From contig NZ_FNCF01000002.1 of NCBI RefSeq assembly GCF_900100695.1, positions 248,001-312,000 on the forward strand: DNA of 64,000 bases, given 5' to 3'. Positions within the stretch are counted from its first letter, which is position 1; every line of letters starts with the position of its first letter. Source of the stretch: Klenkia brasiliensis. Its GTDB lineage: Bacteria; Actinomycetota; Actinomycetes; Mycobacteriales; Geodermatophilaceae. Both the position numbers and the translations under genes were made by a program. Below, piece by piece: positions 27,899-43,022 of the stretch. A model generated the notes under the pieces. The model had not been told where the DNA came from, searched no databases, and saw nothing but the letters and a program-made list of their open reading frames with translations.

Positions 27899-29854
27899 GT
27901 GTCCGACGCCGTCCTCGAAGCCGAACGTGCGCACCTCGACCTCGCCGCCGCCTGTCTGACCGACATGCGCGCGGCCACCGTGGCCACCGCCGACGCCGGC
28001 GTCGATGCCTGGGCCTCCGAGCGCCTGGGCGCCGCCCGCGCCGAGCGGCTGCGCAGCCTGGCCGCCGACCCCGGCGCGCCACCGTTCTTCGGCCGCACCG
28101 ACACCCCCGCCGAGACCTTCCACATCGGCCGCCGGCACGTGCGCGACGCGGCCGGCGACCCGGTGGTCATCGACTGGCGCGCGCCGATGAGCCGGCCGTT
28201 CTACCAGGCCAGCGCCGCCGACCCGCAGGGCCTGGTCCGCCGCCGCAGGTTCGGGTTCGCCGACGGCGTGCTGACCTCCTACGAGGACGAGTCGCTCTCG
28301 GCCGACGACGGGCCGTCGGCCCTGCTGCGCGAGGAGATCGAGCGGCCGCGCTCGGGGCCGATGCGCGACATCGTGGCCACCATCCAGCCCGACCAGGACG
28401 ACATCGTGCGCGCCCCGCTGACCGAGTCGATCTGCGTGCAGGGCGCCCCCGGCACCGGCAAGACCGCCGTCGGGCTGCACCGCGCGGCCTACCTGCTCTA
28501 CACGCACGGCGAGCAGCTCTCCCGCACCGGCGTGCTGGTCGTCGGGCCCAACCGCGCCTTCCTGCGCTACATCGAGCAGGTGCTGCCCGCCCTCGGCGAG
28601 GTCGAGGTCGACCAGGCCACCGTCGCCGACCTCACCGACCGGGTGCCGGTGCGCGCCGAGGACCCCGACGACGTCGCCGTGCTCAAGGGCGATGCCCGGC
28701 TGGCCGAGGTGCTGCACCGCGCGCTGTGGCGCCGGGTCACCAAGCCGCGCGACTCGGTGCAGGTGCCGCTGAGCGGACGGCGGTACCGGATCCCGGAGGA
28801 GCGGCTCAAGCGGTACGTCGACGACCTGCGGCGGGCCGGCATCTCCTACGGCGCCGGCCGGGAGCGGCTGGCGCTGTCGCTGGCCGAGGACGCCCGGCGG
28901 CAGAAGGAGGAGGTCGGCGGCAGCCCGACGGACGCCGAGACGCGGCGCTGCGCCCGCTCGGCCGAGGTCCGCGCGTTCTGCGACGAGCACTGGCCGGCCG
29001 TGGACGCCGCCGCGCTGGTCGCCGAGGTGCTCGCCGACCCGTCGGTGGGCCGCGGCGTGCTCACCGACGCCGAGCAGGGCCTGCTGCGCCGCGCCCCTGC
29101 CCGCTCGGTGCGGGCCACCCGCTGGACGGCGGCCGACGCGGTGCTCGTCGACGAGGTCGCCGGGCTGCTGGAGCGGACGCCGGGCTACGGGCACGTGGTG
29201 GTCGACGAGGCGCAGGACCTCTCCCCGATGCAGTGCCGGGCGGTGGCGCGCCGGCTCGCCGCGGGGTCGCTGACCGTGCTCGGCGACCTGGCGCAGGCCA
29301 CGAGCCCGTGGTCGGTCGCCGACTGGTCGGCCACGCTGGCGGCCCTGGGCCGGCCGGGCACGTCGGTGCGGCCGCTGACGACCGGTTACCGGGTGCCGGC
29401 GGAGGTGCTGGAGTTCGCGAACCGGCTGCTGCCGGTGCTGGTGCCCGGTCTCGCGCCGGCCACCGCGGTCCGCTCGGAGCCGGGGTCGCTGCAGGTCCGG
29501 CCCGTGGCGGTGCTCGCCGAGCCGCTGGCCGAGGTGGTCGCCTCCGTCGGGCCGGGGTCGGTCGGGGTCGTGTGCGCCGACGCCGAGGTGGACGCGCTGG
29601 TGGCCGCGCTGGCCGCGCAGGGCGTCGAGGCCGCGGCGCTGGCCGACGACGGCAGCGAGCCGGCGCCGGTCGCCGTCGTCCCCGCGACCCTGGTCAAGGG
29701 CCTGGAGTTCGACCACGTGGTGGTCGTGGAGCCCGCGGCGATCGTGGCCGCCGAACCCCGGGGGCTGCACCGGCTGTACGTGGCGCTGACCCGGGCGGTG
29801 AGCAGCCTGGTGGTGCTGCACCGCGGCGAGCTGCCGGACCTGCTGGCCGCCTGA
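27899..29854 (+). CDS. HelD-like superfamily 1 helicase
   Basis: 651 residues of the UvrD/HelD class. Walker A is QGAPGTGKTAVGLHRAAYLL (about residue 181), Walker B is VVVDEAQDLSPMQ (about 435), and the C-terminal motifs include LTTGYRVPAEVLEFA and LYVALTRAVSSLVVLH. The N-terminal 130 residues form an antiparallel coiled coil plus IDWRAPMSRPFYQA, diagnostic of HelD, which removes stalled RNA polymerase from DNA; the actinobacterial HelR protects against rifampicin. Slightly shorter than HelR (about 700-750), so specific resistance is only a possibility. The start is GTG 27899. Confidence 0.88.
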   Translation: MSDAVLEAERAHLDLAAACLTDMRAATVATADAGVDAWASERLGAARAERLRSLAADPGAPPFFGRTDTPAETFHIGRRHVRDAAGDPVVIDWRAPMSRPFYQASAADPQGLVRRRRFGFADGVLTSYEDESLSADDGPSALLREEIERPRSGPMRDIVATIQPDQDDIVRAPLTESICVQGAPGTGKTAVGLHRAAYLLYTHGEQLSRTGVLVVGPNRAFLRYIEQVLPALGEVEVDQATVADLTDRVPVRAEDPDDVAVLKGDARLAEVLHRALWRRVTKPRDSVQVPLSGRRYRIPEERLKRYVDDLRRAGISYGAGRERLALSLAEDARRQKEEVGGSPTDAETRRCARSAEVRAFCDEHWPAVDAAALVAEVLADPSVGRGVLTDAEQGLLRRAPARSVRATRWTAADAVLVDEVAGLLERTPGYGHVVVDEAQDLSPMQCRAVARRLAAGSLTVLGDLAQATSPWSVADWSATLAALGRPGTSVRPLTTGYRVPAEVLEFANRLLPVLVPGLAPATAVRSEPGSLQVRPVAVLAEPLAEVVASVGPGSVGVVCADAEVDALVAALAAQGVEAAALADDGSEPAPVAVVPATLVKGLEFDHVVVVEPAAIVAAEPRGLHRLYVALTRAVSSLVVLHRGELPDLLAA

Positions 29855-29875
29855 GGTCTCACTAGGGTCTCGATC

Positions 29876-30730
29876 ATGGCCAAGAAGACGGTGTCGGTGC
29901 GCGAGGTCCTGCGAGCCCCGTCGGGTGCCGTCTCGCTGGCCGACATCGACCCGCGGGACACCCCGTCGGCGCCGGGCGACAAGGACGCCACCAAGGCGCA
30001 GCTGGCCGCCGACGGCGCCGAGCTGGCGGTGCTGCAGGAGAAGCTCTACGCCGAGGGCGCCACGGGCGGCACCCGCCGGGTGCTGCTGGTGCTGCAGGGC
30101 ATGGACACCAGCGGCAAGGGCGGGGTCATCGAGCACGTCGCCGGGTCGGTGAACCCGCAGGGCCTGGCCATCACCAGCTTCAAGAAGCCCACGCCGGAGG
30201 AGCTGCGGCACGGGTTCCTCTGGCGGGTCCGGCGGGCGGTCCCGGCGCCGGGGCTGATCGGGGTGTTCGACCGCTCGCACTACGAGGACGTGCTCATCGG
30301 CCGGGTGCGCGAGCTGGCCACCCCGGCGGTCATCGAGCGGCGGTACCGGGAGATCGTCCGGTTCGAGGACCAGCTGGCCGAGTCCGGCGTGACGATCGTG
30401 AAGTGCATGCTGCACGTGTCGAAGTGGGAGCAGAAGCAGCGCCTGCTGGCCCGCCTGGACGACTCGACCAAGCGCTGGAAGTTCAACCCCGGCGACATCG
30501 ACGAGCGCGCGCTGTGGGACCAGTACCAGCGCGCCTACGAGATCGCCGTCGAGCGCACCTCGACGCAGACCAACCCCTGGTACGTCGTGCCCTCGGACCG
30601 CAAGTGGTACCGGAACTGGGCCATCGGCCGGCTGCTGCTGGAGGCGGTGCAGGACCTGGACCCGCGCTTCCCGCCCGCCGACTACGACGTCGCCGCCCAG
30701 CGCGACCGCCTCATCGACGAGGCCGACTGA
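29876..30730 (+). CDS. Polyphosphate kinase 2 family protein
   Basis: 284 residues, one PPK2 domain. Walker A is GMDTSGKGG (75-83), the Walker B region is FDRSHYEDVL (131-140), and the lid follows with RRYREIVRFEDQL. PPK2 enzymes phosphorylate nucleotides from polyphosphate; the single-domain length fits class I or III, with ADP or AMP as acceptor. The ATG at 29876 lies 21 bases after the helicase stop, perhaps on one transcript. Confidence 0.92.
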   Translation: MAKKTVSVREVLRAPSGAVSLADIDPRDTPSAPGDKDATKAQLAADGAELAVLQEKLYAEGATGGTRRVLLVLQGMDTSGKGGVIEHVAGSVNPQGLAITSFKKPTPEELRHGFLWRVRRAVPAPGLIGVFDRSHYEDVLIGRVRELATPAVIERRYREIVRFEDQLAESGVTIVKCMLHVSKWEQKQRLLARLDDSTKRWKFNPGDIDERALWDQYQRAYEIAVERTSTQTNPWYVVPSDRKWYRNWAIGRLLLEAVQDLDPRFPPADYDVAAQRDRLIDEAD

Positions 30731-30743
30731 CCCCGGGGCGTCG

Positions 30744-31316
30744 CTAGACGCGGTCGAGGGCCTGGTGCGGCCCGGGCGGCAGCTCGACGGTGATCGGGTC
30801 ACCGCAGCGGACGACACCGCCCGCCGCGACCACTCCCATGATGCCGGCCCTGCGCTGGAGGACGCCCTGGTCGTCGCGGGACACCACCGCGCCCAGGAGC
30901 CCGGGCCGGAAGTCGTCGATCTGCCGGCACGGGTTGCGCAACCCGGTCACCTCGATCGCGGCCCCGCTCGGGAACACCAGCGTCGTCCGTCGGGGCAGGG
31001 CGAGCAGGTCGATGCCCCGCGTCGTCACGTTCTCCCCGAGGTGGCCCGGTTCCAGGTCGTACCCCGTGGTGCGGAGCTCGTCGTGCAGCTCGGCGTGGAT
31101 CAGGTGGACCTGCCGCAGGTTGGGCTGGGTGGGGTCGGCAGCCACCCGTGACCGGTGCTGGACGGTCACCCCGGCGTGGGCATCCCCTCGGACACCGAGC
31201 CCCTCCAGCAGGGTGATGTCGTCGACCGTGCGTTTCGAGAAGCGGTGGCTGTGGTCGAGCGCCACGGCGACGACCCGTCCTGACGAGGGCACCGCTGCAG
31301 TGTGGCAGCCGGCCAT
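30744..31316 (-). CDS. MOSC-domain protein
   Basis: 190 residues with the MOSC core: GVRGDAHAG at the N-terminus, LRQVHLIHAELHDEL, GHLGENVTTRGIDLLALP and the FRPGLLGAVVSRD region. The usual cysteine lies in GLRNPCRQIDDF. MOSC domains bind or transfer sulfur for molybdenum cofactor or molybdoenzymes such as YiiM. ATG 31316 is preceded by GGAGG nine bases upstream; an in-frame ATG at 31391 is less likely. It converges on the ppk2 gene; a molybdenum enzyme (xanthine dehydrogenase) is encoded 8 kb away. Confidence 0.85.
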   Translation of the reverse strand: MAGCHTAAVPSSGRVVAVALDHSHRFSKRTVDDITLLEGLGVRGDAHAGVTVQHRSRVAADPTQPNLRQVHLIHAELHDELRTTGYDLEPGHLGENVTTRGIDLLALPRRTTLVFPSGAAIEVTGLRNPCRQIDDFRPGLLGAVVSRDDQGVLQRRAGIMGVVAAGGVVRCGDPITVELPPGPHQALDRV

Positions 31317-31421
31317 CCCCCTGGACCTCCGCCCGCGTCCTGCATGGTCACCTGCAGTCGGCTCGTTCGGCCGCCTGACCTGTGGATTCACCGTGCCGGC
31401 GGGCGCCTGCCGCGGTAGACT

Positions 31422-31437
31422 TCGAACACCTGATCGA
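31422..31437 (+). promoter_or_regulatory. Near-consensus SOS (LexA) box before the DUF222/HNH gene
   Basis: TCGAAC-ACCT-GATCGA differs from the actinobacterial LexA box TCGAAC-N4-GTTCGA at one base. It starts right after a TAGACT -10-like hexamer (31416-31421) and 23 bases before the start codon. Several 13E12/DUF222 genes of Mycobacterium tuberculosis are LexA targets, which makes the match more meaningful. CACCTG-N6-CAGGTG overlaps it as a second dyad. Confidence 0.6.
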
Positions 31438-31459
31438 ACAGGTGGGGGGAGGTGTCGCA

Positions 31460-32857
31460 GTGGGTCTGGACGAGACGCAGCCCTGGGCGCCCGAACCCCT
31501 CGCGCCCGGTGCCCTCGGCGCCGACCGCCGACCAGCCCTCTCCCCGATGGCCGCCGCCTCGCGGCAGCCCGACCCGCCGCCCGCCGATGTCTGCGCGGCG
31601 ATCGAGGCGGTGCTCGCCGCGGCCGCGACCCCGCTGGACGGCGGGACGACCGCGGCGCAGCTGCTGGACCGGGCCCGTGGCCTGGCGCGGCTGGTCAACC
31701 TGGCGCAGGCCGAGCTGGCGCGCACCGTCGCCCACGCCGAGTCGGTGGATGCCGCCTACGCCGACGGGTTGACCGGGATGAAGCCCTGGCTGCGCGGCCA
31801 CACCGCCGCCACCGGACCGGAAGCTGCTGCGGTGCTCGCTGCGGGCCGGTTGGCGCGGCGGATGCCGGCCGTCGGTTCCGGTGCGGCGGTGGGCGGGATC
31901 AGTGCCGGGCAGCTGGCGGTGATCGGCCGGATCCTCACCGACGACGTCTGGGCCACCGGCGACGCCCTCGGCGCCGACCTGCCCGCCCTGGATGCTCTGG
32001 TCGCGCACACCGCGGTGCACGCGCCCCGCACGCTGGCCGATGTGTGCCGGCGGATCGCCGACGCCCTGGACCCCGACGGGCCGCCACCGGTCGACCCCAC
32101 CGAGGGTCGGGGCCTGCGGATCACCCGCCGGGCCGACGGGTCACGCGCCATCCGTGGGCAGCTCGATGCCGGTGGTGGCGAGCAGGTGGAGGCCGCGCTG
32201 GAGGCCATCGCCGCTGCCGGGCGGTGCGAGGGTGACCTGCGCTCCCGCGACCAGCGCGCCGCCGATGCGCTGGTGCAGCTTGCTGCGTTGCACCTGGCCG
32301 CCGGTGACCTGCCCATGCTGCGCACGGCCAAGCCCCAGGTGACGGCGTTGATCCAGCTGGAGGACCTGGCCGACCCCGACACCCGCCCGGCCGCCACCCG
32401 CCTGGGCTCCGGGGCGACGGCGTCGAACACGGTGGCCCGGCAGGCGGCCTGCGACGGTGACGTCGCCCGCATCCTGCTCGGCCCCGCCGGCCTGCCCCTG
32501 GACGTCGGCCGCGCCCACCGGCTGGTGCCGGCGCACATCCGCCGCGCCGCGGAGGTGCGGGACGGCGGCTGCGTGTTCACCGGCTGCCGCGCCCCCGCCT
32601 GGTGGTGCGACGCCCACCACCTCATCCACTGGATCCACGGCGGGGCCACCAGCCTCGAGAACACCGCCTTGGTGTGCGAACGGCACCACACCCAGGTCCA
32701 CCACGGCTACCGCCTGCAGTGGGACCCCGACGACCGGTGCTGGCGCACCTACCGACCCGACGGCCGGGAGATCATCACCGGCGTCCTCACCGACACCACC
32801 GGCCAACCCATCGACCACCAACAAGCACCCGACCGGCCCCTGTTCGACCGCAGCTGA
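31460..32857 (+). CDS. DUF222 / HNH endonuclease (13E12 family)
   Basis: 465 residues. The long N-terminal part is DUF222 (about 40-340). The C-terminal HNH site is clear: GCVFTGCRAPAWWCDAHHLI, then HWIHGGATSLENTALVCERHH with the conserved Asn and final His. These proteins are multicopy in high-GC actinobacteria; whether they cut DNA in repair, defence or as selfish elements is unsettled. GTG 31460 lies behind GGGGGAGG. A near-perfect LexA box overlaps the promoter, so damage induction is likely. Confidence 0.9.
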   Translation: MGLDETQPWAPEPLAPGALGADRRPALSPMAAASRQPDPPPADVCAAIEAVLAAAATPLDGGTTAAQLLDRARGLARLVNLAQAELARTVAHAESVDAAYADGLTGMKPWLRGHTAATGPEAAAVLAAGRLARRMPAVGSGAAVGGISAGQLAVIGRILTDDVWATGDALGADLPALDALVAHTAVHAPRTLADVCRRIADALDPDGPPPVDPTEGRGLRITRRADGSRAIRGQLDAGGGEQVEAALEAIAAAGRCEGDLRSRDQRAADALVQLAALHLAAGDLPMLRTAKPQVTALIQLEDLADPDTRPAATRLGSGATASNTVARQAACDGDVARILLGPAGLPLDVGRAHRLVPAHIRRAAEVRDGGCVFTGCRAPAWWCDAHHLIHWIHGGATSLENTALVCERHHTQVHHGYRLQWDPDDRCWRTYRPDGREIITGVLTDTTGQPIDHQQAPDRPLFDRS

Positions 32858-32884
32858 CAGCCCGGAGCGAAGCTCCACCCTGCG

Positions 32885-34135
32885 TCAGTGCTGCGCTGTC
32901 GCGCTCGGCCACAGCCGGGGGACCGGCACGGACCGCACCTCGCGGCTGAGGGTGACCACCAGCGCCGTCCCCAGCAGTGCGACCAGGAGGACGACGGTGG
33001 CGCCCCGGCCGCCGAGGTGCTCCAGGGCCAGGCCGCCCAGCAGCGGGGCCAGCGGCATCACCGCCATCGACAGGAAGGTCGAGCTCGCGTCGACCCGGCC
33101 CTGCAGCGACGCCGGGGTGATGGCGATCCGGTAGGCGGCGATGCCCGCGTTGCTGGCCGGGAGCAGCAGGAGCACGGCGAACAGGGCGGCGGCGGCCACG
33201 GCCGGGTGGGCCCAGAACAGCAGTGGGACCAGCGGGAGACCCGCCGTCCACGCCAGGGCCACGGTCAGCCGGCCGGTGGCGACCCGGGCGATCAGCCACG
33301 GGGCGGCGACGGCGCCGACGATGCCGCCCACCCCGGCGGCGGCGTTGACCAGCCCGATCTCCGCCGGGTGCGCGCCCTCGTCCACCAGTCGGAGCACCAC
33401 CACGAACAGCAGGGCGTTCAGCGCCAGGTTCACCAGGGCCGCCCAGGTCAGCAGCACCCGGAAGAACGGCCGGGCCAGCACGAAGCGCACCCCTTCGGCC
33501 AGGTCGGCGCCCACCCGCGGGCGTGGGCCGGGGTGGTCGGGTGCGGACAGGTCGGTGCGGATCTGGCTCAGCGTCAGGCAGGACACCGCGAAGGTCAGCG
33601 CGTTGACGGCGAACGGCAGCCAGCGGGTCACCGCGAACAGGAGGCCGCCGAGCGGGCCGCCGAGCAGCCCGGCGAGGTGCTCGCGGGCCTCGTTCTGGCT
33701 CAGCGCCGTGGGCAGGTCCTCGGTGCGGACGACCGAGCGGACGGCCGAGAGCTGCGCCGGCCCGAACACGCCGGCGGCCACCCCCACGACCCCAGCGACG
33801 ACGGCCAGGTGCCCGACCGTCAGGTGGCCCGTCGCCCCCGCCACGGCCAGCGACGAGTAGCTCACCGCACCCGTCGCGGACGACCCCAGCATCAGCCGGC
33901 GGCGGTGCAGCCGGTCGGCCAGCACCCCCGCCGGCAGCAGCGCGGCCACGGTGCCGACCAGGTAGGCGGCCTCGACGGCGGCGGCCTGCACCGCCGACCC
34001 GGTGAGCCCGTAGGTCAGCAGCGGGAAGACGAACAGGCTCATCCGGCTGCCGAGGGCGCTGATCGTCTCCCCGACCCAGAGCACGGTGAAGTCGCGGTTG
34101 CGGACGAGGGATCGATAGCCGGGCACATCGCGCAC
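32885..34135 (-). CDS. MFS exporter divergent from an ArsR regulator
   Basis: About 416 residues, twelve hydrophobic helices, beginning GYRSLVRNRDFTVLWVGETIS, a typical start of MFS family members related to enterobactin and macrolide exporters (MFS_3). Motif A-like residues lie in LADRLHRRRLM. It probably exports a drug or metabolite. The start is uncertain (GTG 34135 or 34126; neither has a clear ribosome site). It is divergent from the ArsR-like gene with a dyad between them, so the repressor probably controls this pump. Confidence 0.82.
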   Translation of the reverse strand: MRDVPGYRSLVRNRDFTVLWVGETISALGSRMSLFVFPLLTYGLTGSAVQAAAVEAAYLVGTVAALLPAGVLADRLHRRRLMLGSSATGAVSYSSLAVAGATGHLTVGHLAVVAGVVGVAAGVFGPAQLSAVRSVVRTEDLPTALSQNEAREHLAGLLGGPLGGLLFAVTRWLPFAVNALTFAVSCLTLSQIRTDLSAPDHPGPRPRVGADLAEGVRFVLARPFFRVLLTWAALVNLALNALLFVVVLRLVDEGAHPAEIGLVNAAAGVGGIVGAVAAPWLIARVATGRLTVALAWTAGLPLVPLLFWAHPAVAAAALFAVLLLLPASNAGIAAYRIAITPASLQGRVDASSTFLSMAVMPLAPLLGGLALEHLGGRGATVVLLVALLGTALVVTLSREVRSVPVPRLWPSATAQH

Positions 34136-34141
34136 GCTAGC

Positions 34142-34163
34142 TTGCGCAAGAGTACGTGCGCAA
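34142..34163. promoter_or_regulatory. Operator between the MFS and ArsR-like genes
   Basis: TTGCGC-N10-GCGCAA, a 22-bp dyad with perfect 6-bp arms, occupies the 58-base gap between the two divergent starts. It is well placed to regulate both genes through the ArsR-like protein. Confidence 0.65.
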
Positions 34164-34193
34164 TAAGACGTGTGGTCCCGGTACGCTCCGCCG

Positions 34194-34766
34194 GTGAGCG
34201 AGGAGCGGGCACCCGCCCAGCCGGTGCGCGACCCGACCGTGCTGCGGGGGCTGGCCCACCCGGTGCGGGCGCGGATCGTCGACGAGATGTACGCGACCGG
34301 GCCGGTCCGGGCGGCCGACGTGGCCCGCGACCTGGGCATCCCGGCCAACCAGGCCAGCTTCCACCTGCGCCAGCTCGCCAAGTACGGGCTGGTCGAGGAG
34401 GCCCCGGACGCCGGGCGCGATCGCCGCGACCGGGTCTGGCAGCTGACGGCGCAGACCGGGCTGAGCATCGACGTCGGCGACCTCGCGGCCCTCCCCGGTG
34501 GTCAGGCGGCCGTGGACGTGTGGCGGCAGCAGGCCAGCGCGTGGGCGCACGGGGTGGTCGACGCCGCCTACCACCGCGAACCCGACGACGCGGTCACCGT
34601 GCACATCGCCACGTCGACGGTGCGGCTGACCAAGGACGAGGCCGCCCGGATGGCGGCCGAGCTCGACGACGTCGTCCAGACCTGGGCGGACCGGACCCGG
34701 GGGCGGGACGGCGACCGGTCCACCTACGCCCTGCTCAGCGTGCTGCAGCCCTACCCGGAGAGCTGA
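34194..34766 (+). CDS. ArsR-type winged-helix regulator
   Basis: 190 residues. The HTH_20/ArsR-like domain covers 12-75 (TVLRGLAHPVRARIVDEMY, ANQASFHLRQLAKYGLVEE). The C-terminal 90 residues are helical and of the kind found in YdfL/MFS-linked repressors. No metal-binding Cys cluster is seen, so a drug-like ligand is more likely than a metal. GTG 34194 was chosen; GTG 34170 would add eight residues. The stop lies two bases before the displaced guanine deaminase remnant at the island edge. Confidence 0.85.
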   Translation: MSEERAPAQPVRDPTVLRGLAHPVRARIVDEMYATGPVRAADVARDLGIPANQASFHLRQLAKYGLVEEAPDAGRDRRDRVWQLTAQTGLSIDVGDLAALPGGQAAVDVWRQQASAWAHGVVDAAYHREPDDAVTVHIATSTVRLTKDEAARMAAELDDVVQTWADRTRGRDGDRSTYALLSVLQPYPES

Positions 34767-34811
34767 TCAGCCGCGGATGCGCGTGCCGTGCCCGTAGCCG
34801 CCGGCAAGGTC
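34767..34811 (-). repeat. Displaced 3' end of guanine deaminase gene (left island boundary)
   Basis: Read leftwards this stretch encodes DLAGGYGHGTRIRG and TGA, against DVAGVWVDGTRIRG and TAG at the true gene end (37025-37069); 9 of 14 residues agree. At the DNA level 34769-34789 matches 37027-37047 at 20 of 21 positions in direct orientation. This is what remains when an element inserts into a gene's 3' end and supplies a replacement end. Confidence 0.65.
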
Positions 34812-35151
34812 GGACATCGGGTGCGACCGGGAGCCGGTCCGGAAGGCACTGAAGGTTTCGTGTCGCATTGCCTCGACCGCGCCCCGTTGCCGAAACGACT
34901 GGCGGCTCCTGCGTGCAGCGCCCGTGCCGCCCTAGCTTCATGCGCGTGCGCCAAAGACCAGTTTGGCGGGCGCCAGCATTTCGTCCTGGCGCCTCGCCTA
35001 AGTCTCACCTCAAGTCGCTCGTGGCCGGAAACGGCCACCGTCAGGAAATCGACGCTGTTCGACGAGCAGGCGGCAGTCCATCTGGCCACGATCGGGTGAC
35101 CTGCGAAGTCGTGAAGGAGTGCTAGGTTGTGGAGGACTCGATTGGAGCTTT
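34790..35151. other. Island leader: no supported gene, three stable hairpins
   Basis: No frame here shows family features. Three hairpins occur in a row: GCCAAA/TTTGGC (34950-34967), GGCGCCAG/CTGGCGCC with a nine-base loop (34969-34993), and GTGGCCG-GAAA-CGGCCAC (35021-35038), a perfect 7-bp stem capped by a GNRA tetraloop. They could be a 5' leader, a small RNA or protein-binding DNA dyads for the downstream module. The promoter of the module should also lie here but no clear -10/-35 pair was identified. Confidence 0.45.
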
Positions 35152-35943
35152 GTGAGCCTGACTTTTGGCGACCACGACGACGTCGTCTTTGGGCGCGCGC
35201 CGTTAGTAAGCGTTTTGTGTCAGGTTACATTTCCCCCGGTCCTGTCCCTGATGACAGCCGTGGGCATCGCTGGGTTTCAGACAGCGGTGCGGAGCGTGTA
35301 CCCAACTTTGCTGCCCGCTGAGCAATCTACGGACATCGCCTTCGGCCCGCAGTCACTTGACATCAAGCAAGGTGCACCCGTGTGGAGGATGGTTGATGAG
35401 GGCGGCCAATGGACGCTGGGAATATCGGCCGCCTTTGTCTCCCTAGAGACGCCGAACTACACGAATATCGATGAGTTCTTGGAGCGCGTCTCATTCGTTT
35501 TGAAGGCTTTGCGTCGTACGATCCGGCCGGCTGAAAGCAATCGGATCGGGCTTCGAAAGATTAACGTTATCGACGCCGACGAGTACGCCAACGACCTCGG
35601 CCAGCTTGCAACGATTGTCCGGCGAGACCTACTAGGGCCTCTCGGCGTGTCGTCTTTCCCGGCGAAAATTTCAGCAAACTTCTCTCAGCTCGAATTTGCA
35701 GATAGCTTCAATAGTCTCGTTGCACGGTACGGGCTTGGTACGAAAGACGGCCGTGACGGGTTCGTGCTGGACCTCGACTATTCAACCGAACAGCCATATA
35801 CAGTCGATGGTGATCGCGGTTTGCTCGATCTGCTTCGCTACTTCAGCGACGGCATGACCAGTTTCTTTCATTGGTCAATCACCGAAGAGTATAAGAAGCG
35901 ACTTGAACCCTCGGCCCGTTCTGAGTGGAAGAGTGCGGAATGA
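35152..35943 (+). CDS. TIGR04255-family-like protein
   Basis: 263 residues from GTG 35152, which has GGAG four bases upstream; a GTG at 35119 overlaps its own ribosome site. The order matches TIGR04255: APLVSVLCQVTFPPV near the N-terminus, a beta-rich middle (PVWRMVDEGGQWTLGISAAF), RIGLRKINVID near 135, and the C-terminal FHWSITEEYKKRLEP. The family is sporadic across bacteria and has no known function. No catalytic motif, signal peptide or membrane helix is seen. Its stop overlaps the antitoxin start (ATGA), so it is built into the toxin-antitoxin operon. GC is low. Confidence 0.65.
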   Translation: MSLTFGDHDDVVFGRAPLVSVLCQVTFPPVLSLMTAVGIAGFQTAVRSVYPTLLPAEQSTDIAFGPQSLDIKQGAPVWRMVDEGGQWTLGISAAFVSLETPNYTNIDEFLERVSFVLKALRRTIRPAESNRIGLRKINVIDADEYANDLGQLATIVRRDLLGPLGVSSFPAKISANFSQLEFADSFNSLVARYGLGTKDGRDGFVLDLDYSTEQPYTVDGDRGLLDLLRYFSDGMTSFFHWSITEEYKKRLEPSARSEWKSAE

Positions 35944-36446
35944 CGGTACTGATTGAGTCTCCGACGACGTTCACGGAAGGGGTGTCGGATCGGCTGACTC
36001 GAATTCGTCAAGGCGGAACCACGATAGAAAGTGGTCACACGGGGGCGGTCTCAGCCGCCCTGATCAAACGAGCCGAGATGGCTCAAAAGCATCAGGGGTC
36101 CGGTGCAATGCAGCGGACCGTCCTTCTGGGTATTCTGCTGGCGCGTCTTGAGGGTGTTCCGTTTGAGGCGTGTGCGGCGCTCCTCGACGTGCGACCTGCG
36201 CGTTTGGCCAAGATGATGCATGGCGACGAGCAAATCCCGGGCAATCGGGTTGCGCGGTGGGAGGCACTAGCCGTAGCCCTCGACAACCTTCATAGCGTCC
36301 TCCGGCAGGACGCGACTTGGAGGTGGCTAAGCACGCAGATGTCTGCGTTGGGTGGTCAGAGTCCGTACTCGGTAATGCTAAGGCGCGGCGGAGCAGAACG
36401 GGTTCGAGACCTGACCGCCTCGTATCGCGATCCAAGCTTCACATAA
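35940..36446 (+). CDS. Xre/MbcA/ParS-type antitoxin
   Basis: 168 residues from ATG 35940, preceded by GGAAGAG at six bases. The middle (about 60-110: GILLARLEGVPFEACAALL, VRPARLAKMMHGDE) is an Xre-like helix-turn-helix. The C-terminal part (WRWLSTQMSALGGQSPYSV, GGAERVRDLTASY) matches the toxin-binding domain formerly DUF2384. Such proteins neutralise RES toxins and repress their own promoter. It overlaps the TIGR04255-like gene by four bases and ends two bases before the toxin GTG, so all three should be translated together. Confidence 0.8.
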   Translation: MTVLIESPTTFTEGVSDRLTRIRQGGTTIESGHTGAVSAALIKRAEMAQKHQGSGAMQRTVLLGILLARLEGVPFEACAALLDVRPARLAKMMHGDEQIPGNRVARWEALAVALDNLHSVLRQDATWRWLSTQMSALGGQSPYSVMLRRGGAERVRDLTASYRDPSFT

Positions 36447-36448
36447 CG

Positions 36449-37003
36449 GTGGTCGCGCCAATATCTCCATCAGAGTGGTCTCCGGGAAAAATCCGCGCAT
36501 ACAAATGGGTCAACTCGTCGTCCTCGTATGATGCCGACAGTCCTTGGTTTGGTGTTGGACGGTTCGGCGACGGGTCCGGGAAAACGCTTTACGTTGCGGA
36601 ATCCGACACTGGTGCGGTTGCTGAGTTCCTTCGGCGGCATCCCGAATTTGCGGAGCTTCAGGACGCCTTGGCGATTCGACTCTACGAGATCGATCTTGAT
36701 GTCGTCGGCCGCTGTCTGGACGTGCGAACCGCAGCTGGTCAGACTGCAGCTCGGGTATCACTCGACCGTCTTGTGTCCTCGGAGGACGATGAGGTTGCGC
36801 GTTACCGCGAGAGTCGTCAACTGGCGACCCAAGCGCAGGGCGAAGGCTTCACCGGTATCGCTTATCCGTCGGCCGCCGCAATGTGGGCATGTTGGAATCT
36901 TGTTCTGTTCAACGATCCATCCACCACGACTTGGCAGAGTCGCGCGTGCAGAGAGATTCCAGTGCCAAAGGTCGACCCTGCGAACGTTCGATTTCTAGGG
37001 TAA
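36449..37003 (+). CDS. RES-domain toxin
   Basis: About 184 residues. RES-family landmarks are present in order: AYKW near the start, WFGVGRFGDGSGKTLYVAES (Arg and Gly-rich NAD-site strand), AVAEFLRRHPEF with the key Glu, and GIAYPSAAAMWACWNLVLF with the conserved Ser. RES toxins such as MbcT and the Pseudomonas enzyme destroy cellular NAD+. The start is not certain: GTG 36449 lies two bases after the antitoxin stop and lacks its own ribosome site, consistent with coupling. It is followed within 21 bases by the convergent guanine deaminase gene. Confidence 0.83.
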   Translation: MVAPISPSEWSPGKIRAYKWVNSSSSYDADSPWFGVGRFGDGSGKTLYVAESDTGAVAEFLRRHPEFAELQDALAIRLYEIDLDVVGRCLDVRTAAGQTAARVSLDRLVSSEDDEVARYRESRQLATQAQGEGFTGIAYPSAAAMWACWNLVLFNDPSTTTWQSRACREIPVPKVDPANVRFLG

Positions 37004-37024
37004 CGAGGACTGGGATTCTTCCGC

Positions 37025-37069
37025 CTAGCCGCGGATGCGGGTGCCGTCGACCCAGACGCCGGCGACGTC
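37025..37069 (-). repeat. Guanine deaminase 3' end (right island boundary)
   Basis: This 45-base end of the guanine deaminase gene (DVAGVWVDGTRIRG and TAG) is the partner of the remnant at 34767-34811. The best matching core, 37027-37047, is a 20/21 direct repeat and is the probable attachment-site core. Confidence 0.6.
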
Positions 37070-38272
37070 CGCCGGGCCGCCGAGGGCGAAGACCTTCGCC
37101 AACGCGTCGTCGGGGCCGGCGGCCGAGCGCAGGACGACGTCCAGGGTCGAACCCTCCGGCGGGCGCAGCCAGACCGCGTCGAAGCGCATGCCGACCGACA
37201 GGTGGCCGACCTGGTCGCCGAGCCCGAGTGCGTCGGCGCCCGCTGCGGTCGCCAGGTGCAGCAGGTCCGCCGGGGTCAGCGGCAGGCCCTCGGCGCCCAG
37301 CAGCTGCTGGGCGAAGTAGGCCTGCAGCCCCTCCTTGAGCAGCGAGAACCCGGTGCCGGCCCCGACGTCGGAGCCCAGCGCCACCCGGACGCCGGCCGCG
37401 CGGTGCCGGCGCAGCGGGAACAGACCGCTGCCCAGCGCGGCGTTGGACGTCGGGCAGTGCGCCACCGCCGTCCCGCGCAGCGCGAGCACGTCCAGCTCGC
37501 CGTCGGTGGGGTGAACGTCGTGGGCCAGCACCGAGCGCGGCCCGAGCAGCGCCCGCTCGTCGTAGCTGTCCACGTAGCCGCCGTGCAGCTGCTCGACGGC
37601 GGCCACCTCGGCCAGGTTCTCGTTGACGTGGGAGGTGAAGACGGCGCCGTCCAGCTCCTGCAACAGCGCCGCGCAGGACTCGAGCAGCTCCGCCGAGCAG
37701 GACAACGAGAACCGCGGCGTGACCGCGTACCGCGACCGGCCGACCCCGTGCCACCTGGCGGCCAGCTCCCGGCCCTCCCGGAGGGCCCGCGCGGGGTCGG
37801 TCAGCAGCTCGGCGGGCAGCAGCCGGTCGCTGACCACCAGCCCCGACGTCACCCGCAGCCCGACCCGCGCGGCCTCGGTGAACAGCGCGTCCACCGCGGT
37901 GGCGAAGTGCGAGCCGAAGACCAGTGCGGTCGTCGTCCCTGCGCGGACCAGGCCGTCGACGAACTCGGTGGCGACCGCGGCCGCGTAGGCGGGCGCGGCG
38001 AGCTTGCACTCCTCGGGCAGCGCGCACCGGTCCAGCCAGTCCAGCAGCGGCATGCCCAGCCCGCCGATCGCCCGGACCTGCGGGTAGTGCACGTGCGTGT
38101 CCACCAGCCCGGGGAGCACCACGCCACCGCGCAGGTCGACGTCCGCGGCGGGGAAGTCCTGCGCCGGGCCGCGGGCCACGACCACGCCGTCCTCGACCTG
38201 CAGCACCCCGTCGAGCGTGCGCAGCTCCCCGGCGACCGGGGTGTCGAGGAACGTGCCGCGGACCAGCGTCAC
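37025..38272 (-). CDS. guaD: Guanine deaminase
   Basis: 415 residues of the amidohydrolase superfamily. Metal ligands are seen in LVDTHVHYPQ, FTSHVNENLAEV, SVLAHDVHPT and GSDVGAG; the PLLDWLDR run and CKLAAPAYA follow the guanine deaminase pattern. It converts guanine to xanthine, the substrate of the xanthine dehydrogenase encoded upstream in the same operon. GTG 38272 overlaps the xdhC stop by four bases. Its last 45 bases are duplicated at the far side of the island. Confidence 0.93.
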   Translation of the reverse strand: MTLVRGTFLDTPVAGELRTLDGVLQVEDGVVVARGPAQDFPAADVDLRGGVVLPGLVDTHVHYPQVRAIGGLGMPLLDWLDRCALPEECKLAAPAYAAAVATEFVDGLVRAGTTTALVFGSHFATAVDALFTEAARVGLRVTSGLVVSDRLLPAELLTDPARALREGRELAARWHGVGRSRYAVTPRFSLSCSAELLESCAALLQELDGAVFTSHVNENLAEVAAVEQLHGGYVDSYDERALLGPRSVLAHDVHPTDGELDVLALRGTAVAHCPTSNAALGSGLFPLRRHRAAGVRVALGSDVGAGTGFSLLKEGLQAYFAQQLLGAEGLPLTPADLLHLATAAGADALGLGDQVGHLSVGMRFDAVWLRPPEGSTLDVVLRSAAGPDDALAKVFALGGPADVAGVWVDGTRIRG

Positions 38273-39066
38273 GAGGGCACGCGGGCGACCGCGCCGAGCA
38301 GCGCGGCGGCCACGCCCACCGCGATCACGGCGGGGTCCTTGCCGGTGAGCTCCGGCAGCCCGATGGGGCAGGTGATCCGGTCGGGGTCGGGCGCGCCGTC
38401 GGCGACCAGGGTGCGCCGGAACCGGGCCCACTTGCCGGCCGAGCCGATCAGCCCGATCGAGGCCAGGCCCGGCGTGCGGAGGGCGGCGTCGCACAGCGCG
38501 GCGTCCTCGGCGTGGTCGTGCGTCATCACCAGCACGTGGCTGCCCGCGGGCAGCTCGGCCAGCACCAGCTCGGGCAGCACCGGCACCTGGTGCACGTGCA
38601 CCTCGGCGACGGCGTCGTCCAGCACGGCCAGGCGCTCGGGGGTCAGCTGACCGGGCCGGGAGTCGACGAGGTGCAGGTCCAGGTCGTGCCGGGCCAGGAT
38701 CCGGGCCAGCTCGAGCCCGACGTGGCCGATCCCGAACACCGCCACCGACGGGACGACGGGCAGCGGCTCCAGCAGCAGCCCGACCTCGCCGCCGCAGCAC
38801 TGCACGCCGTGCCGGTAGGGCGCCTTGTCCGACAGCGCGAGCTCCACCAGCTCGGTGGCCCCGCCGGTGGCCAGCAGCTCCCGGGCCCGCTCGACGGCGA
38901 CCGCCTCCAGGTTGCCGCCGCCCACCGTGCCGTGCAGCTGCGTGGCGGTGACCACCATCTTGGCGCCGGCCTCCCGCGGGGAGTGGCCGCGCACGGTCGC
39001 CACGGTGACCAGCACGCCCGCCTCCCGGCGCTCCCGCAGCGCCCGCACGGCGCGGTCCCAGCGCAT
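38269..39066 (-). CDS. xdhC: Xanthine dehydrogenase accessory protein XdhC
   Basis: 265 residues. The N-terminal XdhC/CoxI domain holds TVRGHSPREAGAKMVV, GTVGGGNLEAVAVERA and CCGGEVGLLLEPLP. The C-terminal Rossmann domain starts near 130 with VFGIGHVGLELARIL. XdhC binds molybdenum cofactor, helps its sulfuration and inserts it into XdhB. ATG 39066 overlaps the xdhB stop (ATGA), so the genes are translationally coupled. Confidence 0.93.
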   Translation of the reverse strand: MRWDRAVRALRERREAGVLVTVATVRGHSPREAGAKMVVTATQLHGTVGGGNLEAVAVERARELLATGGATELVELALSDKAPYRHGVQCCGGEVGLLLEPLPVVPSVAVFGIGHVGLELARILARHDLDLHLVDSRPGQLTPERLAVLDDAVAEVHVHQVPVLPELVLAELPAGSHVLVMTHDHAEDAALCDAALRTPGLASIGLIGSAGKWARFRRTLVADGAPDPDRITCPIGLPELTGKDPAVIAVGVAAALLGAVARVPS

Positions 39067-41480
39067 CAGGCCTGGCCCAGGACGCGCTCGGACTCCGGCC
39101 GGATCGGCGGGCCCTGCGGCTGGGGCGGCGCAGAACCGCCGTCGCGCACGTGCGCGCCCTCGGCGGCCCGGGCGGCCTCGACCGCCCAGAACACCGCCTC
39201 CGGGGTGGCCGGGGAGGCCAGGTCGACGCTGGTGCCCGCCGGCCCGAAGGCGGCGGCGGCCTGGCGCAGTGCCTCGCGGACGGAGAACGCCAGCATGAGC
39301 GGCGGCTCACCGACCGCCTTGGCGCCGTAGACCGCGCCGTCCTCGTGGGCGGCGTCCAGCAGCGAGACCCGGAAGTCCTCGGGCATCTCCGAGAAGCTCG
39401 GCAGCTTGTACGTCGACGCCGACGACGTGGTGATCTTCCCGGTGCGCTCGTCCCAGCGCAGGTCCTCCAGGGTCAGCCACCCCACGCCCTGCACGAACCC
39501 GCCCTCGACCTGGCCGAGGTCGACCAGCGGGGACAGCGAATCACCGACGTCGTGCACGATGTCCACCCGCCGCACCCGGTAGGCGCCGGTGAACCCGTCG
39601 ACCTCGACCTCGGCGGCGGCCACCCCGTAGGCGAAGTACTTGAACGGCTCGCCGCGCATCGCCGCGGAGTCCCAGTGCAGGCCCTCGGTCCGGTAGAAGC
39701 CGGCCGCCCACAGCTGCACCCGCGAGAAGTAGGCCAGCCGGACGACGTCCTCCCACGGCAGCGAGGGCCCGTCGGCGTCCAGCCCGCGCACCCGGCCGTC
39801 GACGAACCGGACGTCGGCCGCCGGCACGTGCAGCTCCTCGGCCGCGACCTGCGCCAGCCGGCCCAGGATCTGCTCGCAGGCGTTCTTCACCGCGCCGCCG
39901 TTGAGGTCCGCGCCCGAGCTCGCCGCGGTCGCCGAGGTGTTGGGCACCTTGTCGGTGCGGGTGGGCGCCAGCCGCACCCGCGACAGCGGGACGCCGAGAG
40001 CGGTGGCCGCGACCTGCAGCATCTTGGTGTGCAGGCCCTGGCCCATCTCGGTGCCGCCGTGGGTGATGAGCACCGAGCCGTCCTTGTAGACGTGCACCAG
40101 CGCCCCGCCCTGGTTGAAGGCGGTGAAGTTGAACGAGATGCCGAACTTCACCGGGGTGATCGCCAGCCCGCGCTTCACGTGGGCCGACGACGCGTTGAAC
40201 GCCTCGACGGAGGCCGTCCGGGCGGAGAAGTCCGAGGAGTCCAGCACCTGCTGCCAGGCGGTGGCGAGCCGGTCGGCGTGCCGCACCGGCTGGCCGTAGG
40301 GCGTGTCCTGGCCCGCTGCGTAGAAGTTCCGTCGGCGCAGCTCCTCGGCGGTGAACCCGAGGGTGGGGGCGCAGCGGCCCAGCACGTCCTCGATCACCAG
40401 CATGCCCTGGGGCCCGCCGAACCCGCGGAACGCCGTCTGCGACGTCTTGTTGGTCCTGGCGATCCGGCCGTTCACCCGCACCGCGGGGATCCAGTACGCG
40501 TTGTCGATGTGGCACAGCGCCCGGGCCAGCACCGGCTCGGACAGGTCCAGGCTCCAGCCGCCGTCCGAGGTCAGCGTGGCGTCCAGCGCGGTCAGCCGGC
40601 CGTCGTCGTCGAACCCGACCCGCCACTGGGCCAGGAACCCGTGCCGCTTCCCGGTCATCGTGATGTCCTGCGCGCGGTTCAGGCGCAGCCGCACGGGCCG
40701 GCCGGTCAGCCGGGCGCCGAGGGCGGCGATCGCGGCCAGGCCGTGCGGCTGCATCTCCTTGCCGCCGAACCCGCCGCCCATCCGCAGGCACTGCACGGTG
40801 ACCTCGCTGCTGGCCAGGCCCAGCACGTGCGCGACGATCTCCTGCGTCTCGGTGGGGTGCTGGGTGCTCGACTGCACGAACACCTGGCCGTCCTCGTCGA
40901 CCTGGGCCAGCGCGCAGTGCGTCTCCAGGTAGAAGTGCTCCTGGCCGGCGAACTCGAACTCGCCGCTGAACACGTGCGCCGACCCGGCGAGCGCCTCCTC
41001 GACGTCCGGGCCGCGCAGCAGGGTCGGCTGCCCGCCCTGGAAGGACTCCGCGGCGACCGCGTCGCGCACGGTGACCACCGCCGGCAGCTCCTCGACGTCC
41101 ACCTCGACGGCGACCGCGCCGAGCCGGGCGGCCTCCAGCGTCTCGCCGAGCACCCAGGCCACCGCGTGGCCGAAGAACATGACCTCGTCGGGGAACAGCG
41201 GCTCGTCGTGCTTGACCCCGGCGTCGTTGACGCCGGGGACGTCGGCCGCGGTGAGCACCCGGACCACCCCGGGGACGTCGGTCGCGGCGTCGGTGCGGAC
41301 GGCGGTGACCCGCGCGTGCGCGGCGAGCACCTGCACCGGCCACGCGTGCAGCACGCCCTTCGTGCGGCCGACCAGGTCGTCGGTGTAGAGCGCCCGCCCG
41401 GTGACGTGCAGCGCCGCGGCCTCGTGCGGGACGGCGGCGCCGACGACGGCGCCGAGCGGGCGTTCGGACAGCGCACTCAT
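39066..41480 (-). CDS. xdhB: Xanthine dehydrogenase, molybdopterin-binding subunit
   Basis: 804 residues, the usual length. The N-terminal a/b hammerhead domain (GRALYTDDLVGRTKGVLHAW) leads to the two molybdopterin-binding domains with QEHFYLETHCALA, RMGGGFGGKEMQ, FRGFGGPQGM and GTEMGQGLHTKM; the Glu of GEPPLMLAFS near the end is the likely catalytic base. It oxidises hypoxanthine and xanthine to urate. The start overlaps the xdhA stop by four bases. Substrate is supported by the guanine deaminase gene in the operon. Confidence 0.95.
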   Translation of the reverse strand: MSALSERPLGAVVGAAVPHEAAALHVTGRALYTDDLVGRTKGVLHAWPVQVLAAHARVTAVRTDAATDVPGVVRVLTAADVPGVNDAGVKHDEPLFPDEVMFFGHAVAWVLGETLEAARLGAVAVEVDVEELPAVVTVRDAVAAESFQGGQPTLLRGPDVEEALAGSAHVFSGEFEFAGQEHFYLETHCALAQVDEDGQVFVQSSTQHPTETQEIVAHVLGLASSEVTVQCLRMGGGFGGKEMQPHGLAAIAALGARLTGRPVRLRLNRAQDITMTGKRHGFLAQWRVGFDDDGRLTALDATLTSDGGWSLDLSEPVLARALCHIDNAYWIPAVRVNGRIARTNKTSQTAFRGFGGPQGMLVIEDVLGRCAPTLGFTAEELRRRNFYAAGQDTPYGQPVRHADRLATAWQQVLDSSDFSARTASVEAFNASSAHVKRGLAITPVKFGISFNFTAFNQGGALVHVYKDGSVLITHGGTEMGQGLHTKMLQVAATALGVPLSRVRLAPTRTDKVPNTSATAASSGADLNGGAVKNACEQILGRLAQVAAEELHVPAADVRFVDGRVRGLDADGPSLPWEDVVRLAYFSRVQLWAAGFYRTEGLHWDSAAMRGEPFKYFAYGVAAAEVEVDGFTGAYRVRRVDIVHDVGDSLSPLVDLGQVEGGFVQGVGWLTLEDLRWDERTGKITTSSASTYKLPSFSEMPEDFRVSLLDAAHEDGAVYGAKAVGEPPLMLAFSVREALRQAAAAFGPAGTSVDLASPATPEAVFWAVEAARAAEGAHVRDGGSAPPQPQGPPIRPESERVLGQA

Positions 41481-42880
41481 GCCGGCACCTCCGCTGCGGC
41501 GATCTTGAGCAGGGACTGCCGGAGCATCGCCCGCCGGTAGGCGGCGCTGGCCCGGTGGTCGTCGAGCGGGGTGCCCTCGCCGGCCAGCACGTCGGCGGCC
41601 GCGGCGACGTCGGGCCACCGCGCGCCGACCAGGGCCTCCTCCGTGGCCCGGGCGCGGATCGGGGTGGCGGCCACCCCGCCCAGCCCGATCGTCGCCCGGG
41701 TGACCTCGCCGTCCACGACGTCCACCCCGACGGCGACGGCGACGCTGGAGATGTCGTCGAACCGCCGCTTGGCGATCTTGGTGAACCCGACCAGCCCGGG
41801 TTGCGGCTGCGGGATGCGGACGGCGCGGATCAGCTCGCCCGCCGTGCGCACGCTGCGCCGGTAGCCGGTGAAGTAGTCGGCCAGGGCCACCTCGCGCTCG
41901 CCGGCGGCCGAGACCAGCACCAGCGAGGCGTCCAGGGCCAGCAGGACGGGGGCGGCGTCGCCGATGGGGGAGCCGGTGCCCAGGTTGCCGCCCAGCGTCG
42001 CGCCGTTGCGGATCAGCACGGAGGCGAACTGCGGGAGCAGCAGGTCCAGCAGCGGGACGGCGCCGTCCAGCCGTGCGGCCACCTCGCTGAGGGTGACGGC
42101 GGCACCGATCTCGACCACCTCGTCGGTGACCGAGACCCCGTGCAGCTCCGGCAGCCGGTCGATCGCGACGACCTGCCGGGCGCGCAGGCCGCGCAGGTTG
42201 ACCTCGACGCCGTGGTCGGTCGAGCCGGCGACGACGACGGCGTCGGGGTGCTCGGCCAGCAGCGCCAGCGCGGCGGGCAGGTCGGCCGGGCGGGCGAACC
42301 CGGGGACGTCGGTCGGGGTCGCGGCGGGTGCGGGACGGGTCTGCCGGCCGGCCAGCGCGTCGTCGGCGTCCGGGGCGGCCAGGGCGTAGGCCGCGTCGCG
42401 GATGGGCCGGTAGCCGGTGCAGCGGCAGAGGTTGCCCGACAGGGCGTGCAGGTCGAACCCGTTGGCGCCGTGCTCGGGCGTGGGCTCGCCCGGGGCGCGG
42501 TCGGGCCGGTAGAACTCCGCGGCCATCGAGCAGACGAACCCCGGCGTGCAGTAGCCGCACTGCGAACCGCCGCGCACCGCCATCTCGTGCTGGACCGGGT
42601 GCAGGTCGTCGGGGGTGCCCAGGCCCTCGGCGGTGACCACCTCCTGGCCGTCGAGCGCCAGCACCGGGACCAGGCAGGCGTTCAGCGCCGTCCAGCGGGT
42701 GGGCGTCGTCGTCCCGGGGCGGGCGACGAGCACCGAGCAGGCCCCGCACTCGCCCTCGGCGCACCCCTCCTTGGCACCGACCAGGCCCGACTCCCGCAGC
42801 CAGTCCAGCGCGGTGGTGTGCGCGGGGACGCCGTCCAGGGGGACGGTGCGCCCGTTCACGGTCAGGCTCGGGGACGGCAT
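41477..42880 (-). CDS. xdhA: Xanthine dehydrogenase, small subunit (2Fe-2S and FAD)
   Basis: 467 residues. Both iron-sulfur clusters are visible: CAEGECGACSVL (plant-type ferredoxin) and CGYCTPGF with CRCTGYRPI. From about 190 the FAD-binding domain follows (VVAGSTDHGVEVNL, GATLGGNLGTGSPIGDAAP). It passes electrons from the molybdenum centre to NAD. It is the first gene of the purine-degradation operon xdhA-xdhB-xdhC-guaD. ATG 42880; a regulator is not adjacent. Confidence 0.95.
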   Translation of the reverse strand: MPSPSLTVNGRTVPLDGVPAHTTALDWLRESGLVGAKEGCAEGECGACSVLVARPGTTTPTRWTALNACLVPVLALDGQEVVTAEGLGTPDDLHPVQHEMAVRGGSQCGYCTPGFVCSMAAEFYRPDRAPGEPTPEHGANGFDLHALSGNLCRCTGYRPIRDAAYALAAPDADDALAGRQTRPAPAATPTDVPGFARPADLPAALALLAEHPDAVVVAGSTDHGVEVNLRGLRARQVVAIDRLPELHGVSVTDEVVEIGAAVTLSEVAARLDGAVPLLDLLLPQFASVLIRNGATLGGNLGTGSPIGDAAPVLLALDASLVLVSAAGEREVALADYFTGYRRSVRTAGELIRAVRIPQPQPGLVGFTKIAKRRFDDISSVAVAVGVDVVDGEVTRATIGLGGVAATPIRARATEEALVGARWPDVAAAADVLAGEGTPLDDHRASAAYRRAMLRQSLLKIAAAEVPA

Positions 42881-43022
42881 GCGGGGTGCTCCTCGGGGTC
42901 GGTGCGGGGCTCCAGGGTGCACTGTGCAGGTTGCGGGCAGGTCTCGGTCGTGCGCCGGAGGGTTGTGGAACGCGCGTGTCCTTGATCGGATGACGGTCCC
43001 CGACCTGCACGGAGGCACGTCG

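Follow-up and report, generated by a model that had tools for sequence, protein, structure and literature searches.

Why should a gene of the TIGR04255 family, which has no known function, be locked to a toxin-antitoxin pair? The question is raised by a locus in a 64,000-nucleotide stretch of Klenkia brasiliensis DNA (contig NZ_FNCF01000002.1, positions 248,001 to 312,000; hereafter the window), where a TIGR04255 gene (T) is followed by the genes of an Xre/MbcA/ParS-type antitoxin and of a RES-domain toxin. We regard it as moderately probable that the islet carrying them is an inserted three-gene toxin-antitoxin module in which T is a shared third component that would stabilise the antitoxin, the toxin being freed upon a signal. 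This reading draws on gene order, overlaps, homology, the recurrence of a related operon elsewhere and predicted folds.

The gene order given in a preliminary description of the window was borne out for all three genes by profile searches. T matched TIGR04255 with 118.8 bits (curated NCBIfam cut-off 30) over model positions 4-252 of 252. Its open reading frame (ORF) opens at 35119, and by eye the likelier start is a GTG codon at 35152, preceded by GGAG. The antitoxin matched PF09722 (Xre_MbcA_ParS_C) with 28.1 bits, above the cut-off of 24.5, and the helix-turn-helix (HTH) part was seen by profile alignment. Against NCBIfam NF049845 and TIGR02293 it scored 23.6 bits (cut-off 90) and 18.8 bits (cut-off 57) respectively, far under the cut-offs, and therefore we take it to be a diverged antitoxin. 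The toxin matched PF08808 (RES) with 52.6 bits (cut-off 23.2), and when it is aligned with 30 further RES domains its R38, Y48, E59 and S141 sit in conserved columns; R38, E59 and S141 would be the catalytic residues. The 4-base ATGA overlap of the T and antitoxin genes (35940-35943) and the 2-base gap (36447-36448) between the antitoxin gene and the RES gene directly downstream can both be read in the sequence, as had been described, and because of the overlap the translation of T and that of the antitoxin would be coupled.

Regarding the T protein itself, the predicted structure is a two-repeat strand-helix fold (predicted local distance difference test score, pLDDT, 89.7), and its invariant residues are R, D and Y. 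The modelled fold resembles the catalytic domains of guanido (arginine) kinases and also TBP-like or AdoMetDC folds; these matches are too middling to name a family and we rejected them as family evidence. PADLOC-DB 2.0.0 gave no match to the three window proteins at E up to 1, nor to 66 T proteins at E up to 0.01. A literature search by the family name TIGR04255, other names not being searched, returned no paper, and among the literature on three-part or RES systems no title concerned TIGR04255.

In order to know whether RES is a usual partner of T, we relied on two surveys. The first was an unseeded profile survey of three overlapping draws of genomes, all within one phylum. In the class draw the TIGR04255 profile had 24 matches in 23 of 394 genomes and RES was found in 80 of the same 394, the two being side by side only in the window; TIGR04255 matches occurred in 31 of 396 genomes of the phylum draw and in 4 of 112 of the family draw. 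The pooled draws held 56 distinct matches, and all but one (G633:C108, a fragment at the end of a contig) were examined, giving 55 loci. RES adjoins T in one of these 55 loci, the window itself, and is therefore a rare partner. The second was a seeded scan of five T proteins against 84,980 genomes, one per species, plus viral contigs, which gave 72 + 2 loci, and RES lay behind T in 0 of the 74. A recurrent TIGR04255-RES unit thus has to be rejected; the neighbourhood survey that decided this was the test which the preliminary description had itself put forward.

What recurs is an operon, T-H-Q, made of a TIGR04255 gene, an Xre-like HTH gene (H) and the gene of a protein predicted to have a MazF fold (Q). 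In the seeded scan an ORF at the H position followed T in 73 of 74 loci and Q was found in 68, which is not a prevalence, since four of the five seed proteins (alignment A2) came from T-H-Q loci on plasmids. The six loci without Q were cut by a contig edge (L066, L117, L137), had a broken Q start (L136), carried only H (L097) or lacked H (L131). The T-H overlap was exactly 4 bases, as in the window, in 55 of the 72 measured loci. In the profile survey, Q lay downstream of T on the same strand in 29 of 55 loci, 21 of them with a profile-recognised H between, and H alone stood behind T in three; L013 ends ahead of any visible Q, and L021, with Q on the opposite strand, was not counted. In related loci a script set the bounds of the H and Q genes, and the earliest loci to be found supplied the Q profiles. 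T-H-Q was also present in 6 of 7 T loci taken from plasmids (7 of 8 T-bearing plasmid records were examined, H3 being left out, and 1 of 3 phage records, H9, which lacks the module). The window genome holds a second T (G000:C6, L003:1724-4283), about 180 kilobases away and 25% identical to the first, and this one belongs to a T-H-Q operon, with an HTH gene and Q, not Xre and RES.

The earlier claim that T is a working part therefore keeps one half of its ground: it is favoured indirectly, by T-H-Q with the same overlap, whereas its special link to RES is lost. We place T in a three-gene toxin-antitoxin unit because T-H-Q recurs with that overlap, not because of RES. Taken together, the sequences suggest that T partners toxins of at least two kinds, in most cases Q and in the window RES.

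Residues 15-153 of Q are predicted to have the fold of the MazF/PemK/CcdB toxins. Unlike these, the modelled Q has 280 residues with an extra C-terminal part and does not match the PemK-type Pfam profile: among 54 Q proteins, 53 had no Pfam match at E up to 0.01 and the other matched only TraH_2 (E 0.003). As the PemK-type profile was not among the matches, we file Q only as having a MazF fold and not as a member of the MazF family. Six of the 54 hit the same PHROG, to which neither a name nor a function is assigned, a Q profile search of solved structures found nothing at E up to 1, and PADLOC-DB 2.0.0 gave two single weak matches (E 0.026 and 0.056). Q is thus a candidate toxin family of predicted MazF fold which escapes recognition by Pfam.

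A profile-profile comparison links the window antitoxin with the H family, although a simple profile search does not: the antitoxin and one relative align to the H set at 94.0%. The winged-HTH control of this comparison had 12 rows, three of which (L142, L150, L151) resembled wrong-strand translations. The alignment makes the link between H and the antitoxin a little stronger, and the Pfam families of H, given below, make it a little weaker. Searches with the window antitoxin found one relative in plasmids and none in viral contigs.

As for how the module might work, by analogy with its families the RES toxin would consume NAD+, and the antitoxin would repress the operon and block the toxin. 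T would bind the antitoxin, perhaps through its extended N-terminal part, and keep it folded or stable. An infection or stress signal would then titrate or alter T, so that the antitoxin would be lost and the toxin freed, as reported for the CmdC chaperone of CmdTAC. To judge from excerpts of PMC5105189, PMC6377645 and PMC11618068, the TAC and CmdTAC systems likewise have three proteins, one of which is neither toxin nor antitoxin and, in the analogy proposed here, acts through the antitoxin; their third protein is SecB-like, whereas that of the window is TIGR04255. The two-gene RES-Xre type II pairs (NatRT, MbcTA, ParST, RES-Xre of P. putida and GndRX) share with the window, according to an excerpt of PMC12457610, a RES toxin with the R-E-S residues and an HTH-bearing Xre/MbcA/ParS antitoxin in one locus. 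The window differs from them in the third gene, which overlaps the antitoxin gene upstream, and in the part of the antitoxin before the HTH, which is longer than in five compared antitoxins. The module would be a further form of three-part toxin-antitoxin system, and it offers a starting point for finding a RES toxin that is controlled by two partners. The TIGR04255 family gains a testable role through toxin-antitoxin-like operons across phyla.

Besides the rarity of RES, several points weigh against this module reading. The comparison behind the longer N-terminal part covered five antitoxins and left five more of the set unmeasured; H proteins also have a longer part behind the HTH, and in TAC modules the extension that makes the antitoxin dependent is C-terminal, according to an excerpt of PMC6377645. 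No SecB chain was among the structure matches listed for the T model, which does not exclude the fold. The nearest relative of the window antitoxin is encoded on an Arthrobacter plasmid without T, and the window antitoxin alone scored -0.4 bits against the H profile. PF09722, the Pfam toxin-binding domain, was not among the 25 families, out of 30, listed for 54 H proteins; the Xre-like-HTH family PF20432 matched 25 of the 54, and general HTH models matched more. Eight of the 29 Q loci had no profile-recognised H, and 22 of the 55 T loci had neither H, Q nor RES. Among these 22, L190 stops 20 bases past T, eight (L006-L010, L012, L017, L019) come from one genus of the same order, apparently mycobacterial to judge by the neighbouring genes, with a gene resembling an S-adenosylmethionine-dependent methyltransferase beside T in five of the eight, and in several T is followed by another two-gene set (L197-L201, L209, L210). 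Finally, a search of the islet for promoter and terminator consensus found 0 and 0, shuffled sequences averaging 0.5 and 2.0.

The low-GC segment (GC, guanine plus cytosine) of the preliminary description was confirmed. The GC fraction is 0.54-0.61 in 500-base segments starting at 35000-36500 and 0.64-0.67 in the two edge segments, against 0.70-0.79 in the remainder of 28000-44000. In the ORF list of the islet the three-gene module is the sole evident gene set. An imperfect direct repeat, with 34 of 43 positions identical, flanks the islet, and position 34769, given earlier as the start of the module, is actually the first base of this repeat, which had gone unmentioned. To the left lies a gene with an ArsR-type HTH (HTH_20; 34170-34766), and to the right a gene identified by eye as that of guanine deaminase, on the minus strand, with its stop codon at 37025-37027. 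In a congener (G421), whose regulator is 92% identical to that of the window, the two flanks adjoin, with the 43-mer present once (L141:2085-2127) and no islet, so that relative to this congener the islet is an insertion. The left copy resembles this empty site less than the right one does (Table 1), and therefore it was probably brought by the incoming DNA. Such a layout is what integration into the 3' end of a gene would leave, though the ORFs of the islet showed no recombinase, and the repeat is a possible attachment site.

Table 1. Features of the locus, in window coordinates
Feature	Positions	Strand	Size	Basis or remark
T, TIGR04255 family protein	35152..35943	+	263 aa	profile match; start picked by eye
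Xre/MbcA/ParS-type antitoxin, long part before HTH	35940..36446	+	168 aa	PF09722; profile alignment for HTH
RES-domain toxin	36449..37003	+	184 aa	PF08808
Inserted islet	34769..37026	none	2258 bases	GC drop, ORFs, direct repeat, empty site in congener L141
Left repeat copy	34769..34811	none		version of guanine deaminase gene 3' end; 31/43 identical to empty site
Right repeat copy	37027..37069	none		guanine deaminase 3' end itself; 38/43 identical to empty site

The insertion with its flanking repeats also suits a selfish addiction element that keeps an island or plasmid in place and in which T only aids the neutralisation of the toxin and senses nothing. Its anatomy is that of the proposed module and only the role differs. 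Of the six plasmid T-H-Q loci, five are on plasmids typed as conjugative or mobilizable, which favours such an element, the sixth being on one typed as non-mobilizable; nevertheless, some T-H-Q loci adjoin restriction-modification genes, which points to defence, these flanks having no control set, and on the whole we find this explanation somewhat unlikely.

More unlikely is that an ordinary Xre-RES pair landed by recombination behind an uninvolved TIGR04255 gene. Such a chance would account for a RES gene beside T in the window only, for an antitoxin that the H profile misses when taken alone and for the many T loci without H, Q or RES. It would also fit the isolation of the window RES, which had no relatives in plasmids, phages or viral contigs and, beside itself, only four weak ones in 384 genomes (E 1.5e-5 to 8.3e-4); against solved structures it gave a single unrelated match (E 0.83). 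However, most T-H loci show the same 4-base overlap with an HTH gene, no other gene set is evident in the islet, T is bound to a toxin-antitoxin-like pair in T-H-Q, and the profile-profile alignment brings the window antitoxin to the H set. Slightly less probable still is that T is an enzyme or a ligand-binding regulator and not a chaperone-like safeguard, its invariant R, D and Y perhaps forming a nucleotide or ligand site that would modify or gate the antitoxin.

Returning to T as a third component, we can propose only tentatively that TIGR04255 proteins form a class of shared controllers that has yet to be named, spread, to judge by record titles, over seven or more phyla, working with chemically different toxins (MazF-fold, RES acting on NAD+ and perhaps the partners in L197-L201, L209 and L210) and sensing infection or stress through the two-repeat fold. 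For phage defence, the excerpted text of PMC11535050 argues against such a role for one RES toxin: in its account immunity has not been linked to any RES toxin-antitoxin system, and NatT made no difference with more than 50 phages. If T senses phage, this would bear on the physiological role of RES toxins, described as unclear in the same excerpt.

Some neighbourhoods of T deserve mention in their own right. In L093, L098, L106 and L111, genes resembling type I or type III DNA methyltransferases lie directly behind T-H-Q. In a PADLOC scan of flanking genes, the 25 families listed out of 149 were mad2, with 4 members, and methyltransferase models, with 2 or 3 apiece; we claim no enrichment, since the flanking ORFs (121 of the 123 listed) were picked by length and had no control set. 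L197-L201, L209 and L210 show a diverged TIGR04255 gene followed by two nameless genes, of which the first frequently contains a stretch resembling EWHxxGxDLE; together they may make up another multi-gene module. In L178, L185, L211 and L213, TIGR04255 is followed by a gene of about 115-145 codons missed by the H profile and then by a short or cut Q-like gene. In L059, on a Rhizobium plasmid, the TIGR04255 gene adjoins genes annotated as multiubiquitin, ThiF and DUF6527. Beyond the islet, the minus strand at 37025-46538 carries a probable purine degradation cluster of guanine deaminase, XdhC-like and xanthine dehydrogenase-like genes, all named by eye.
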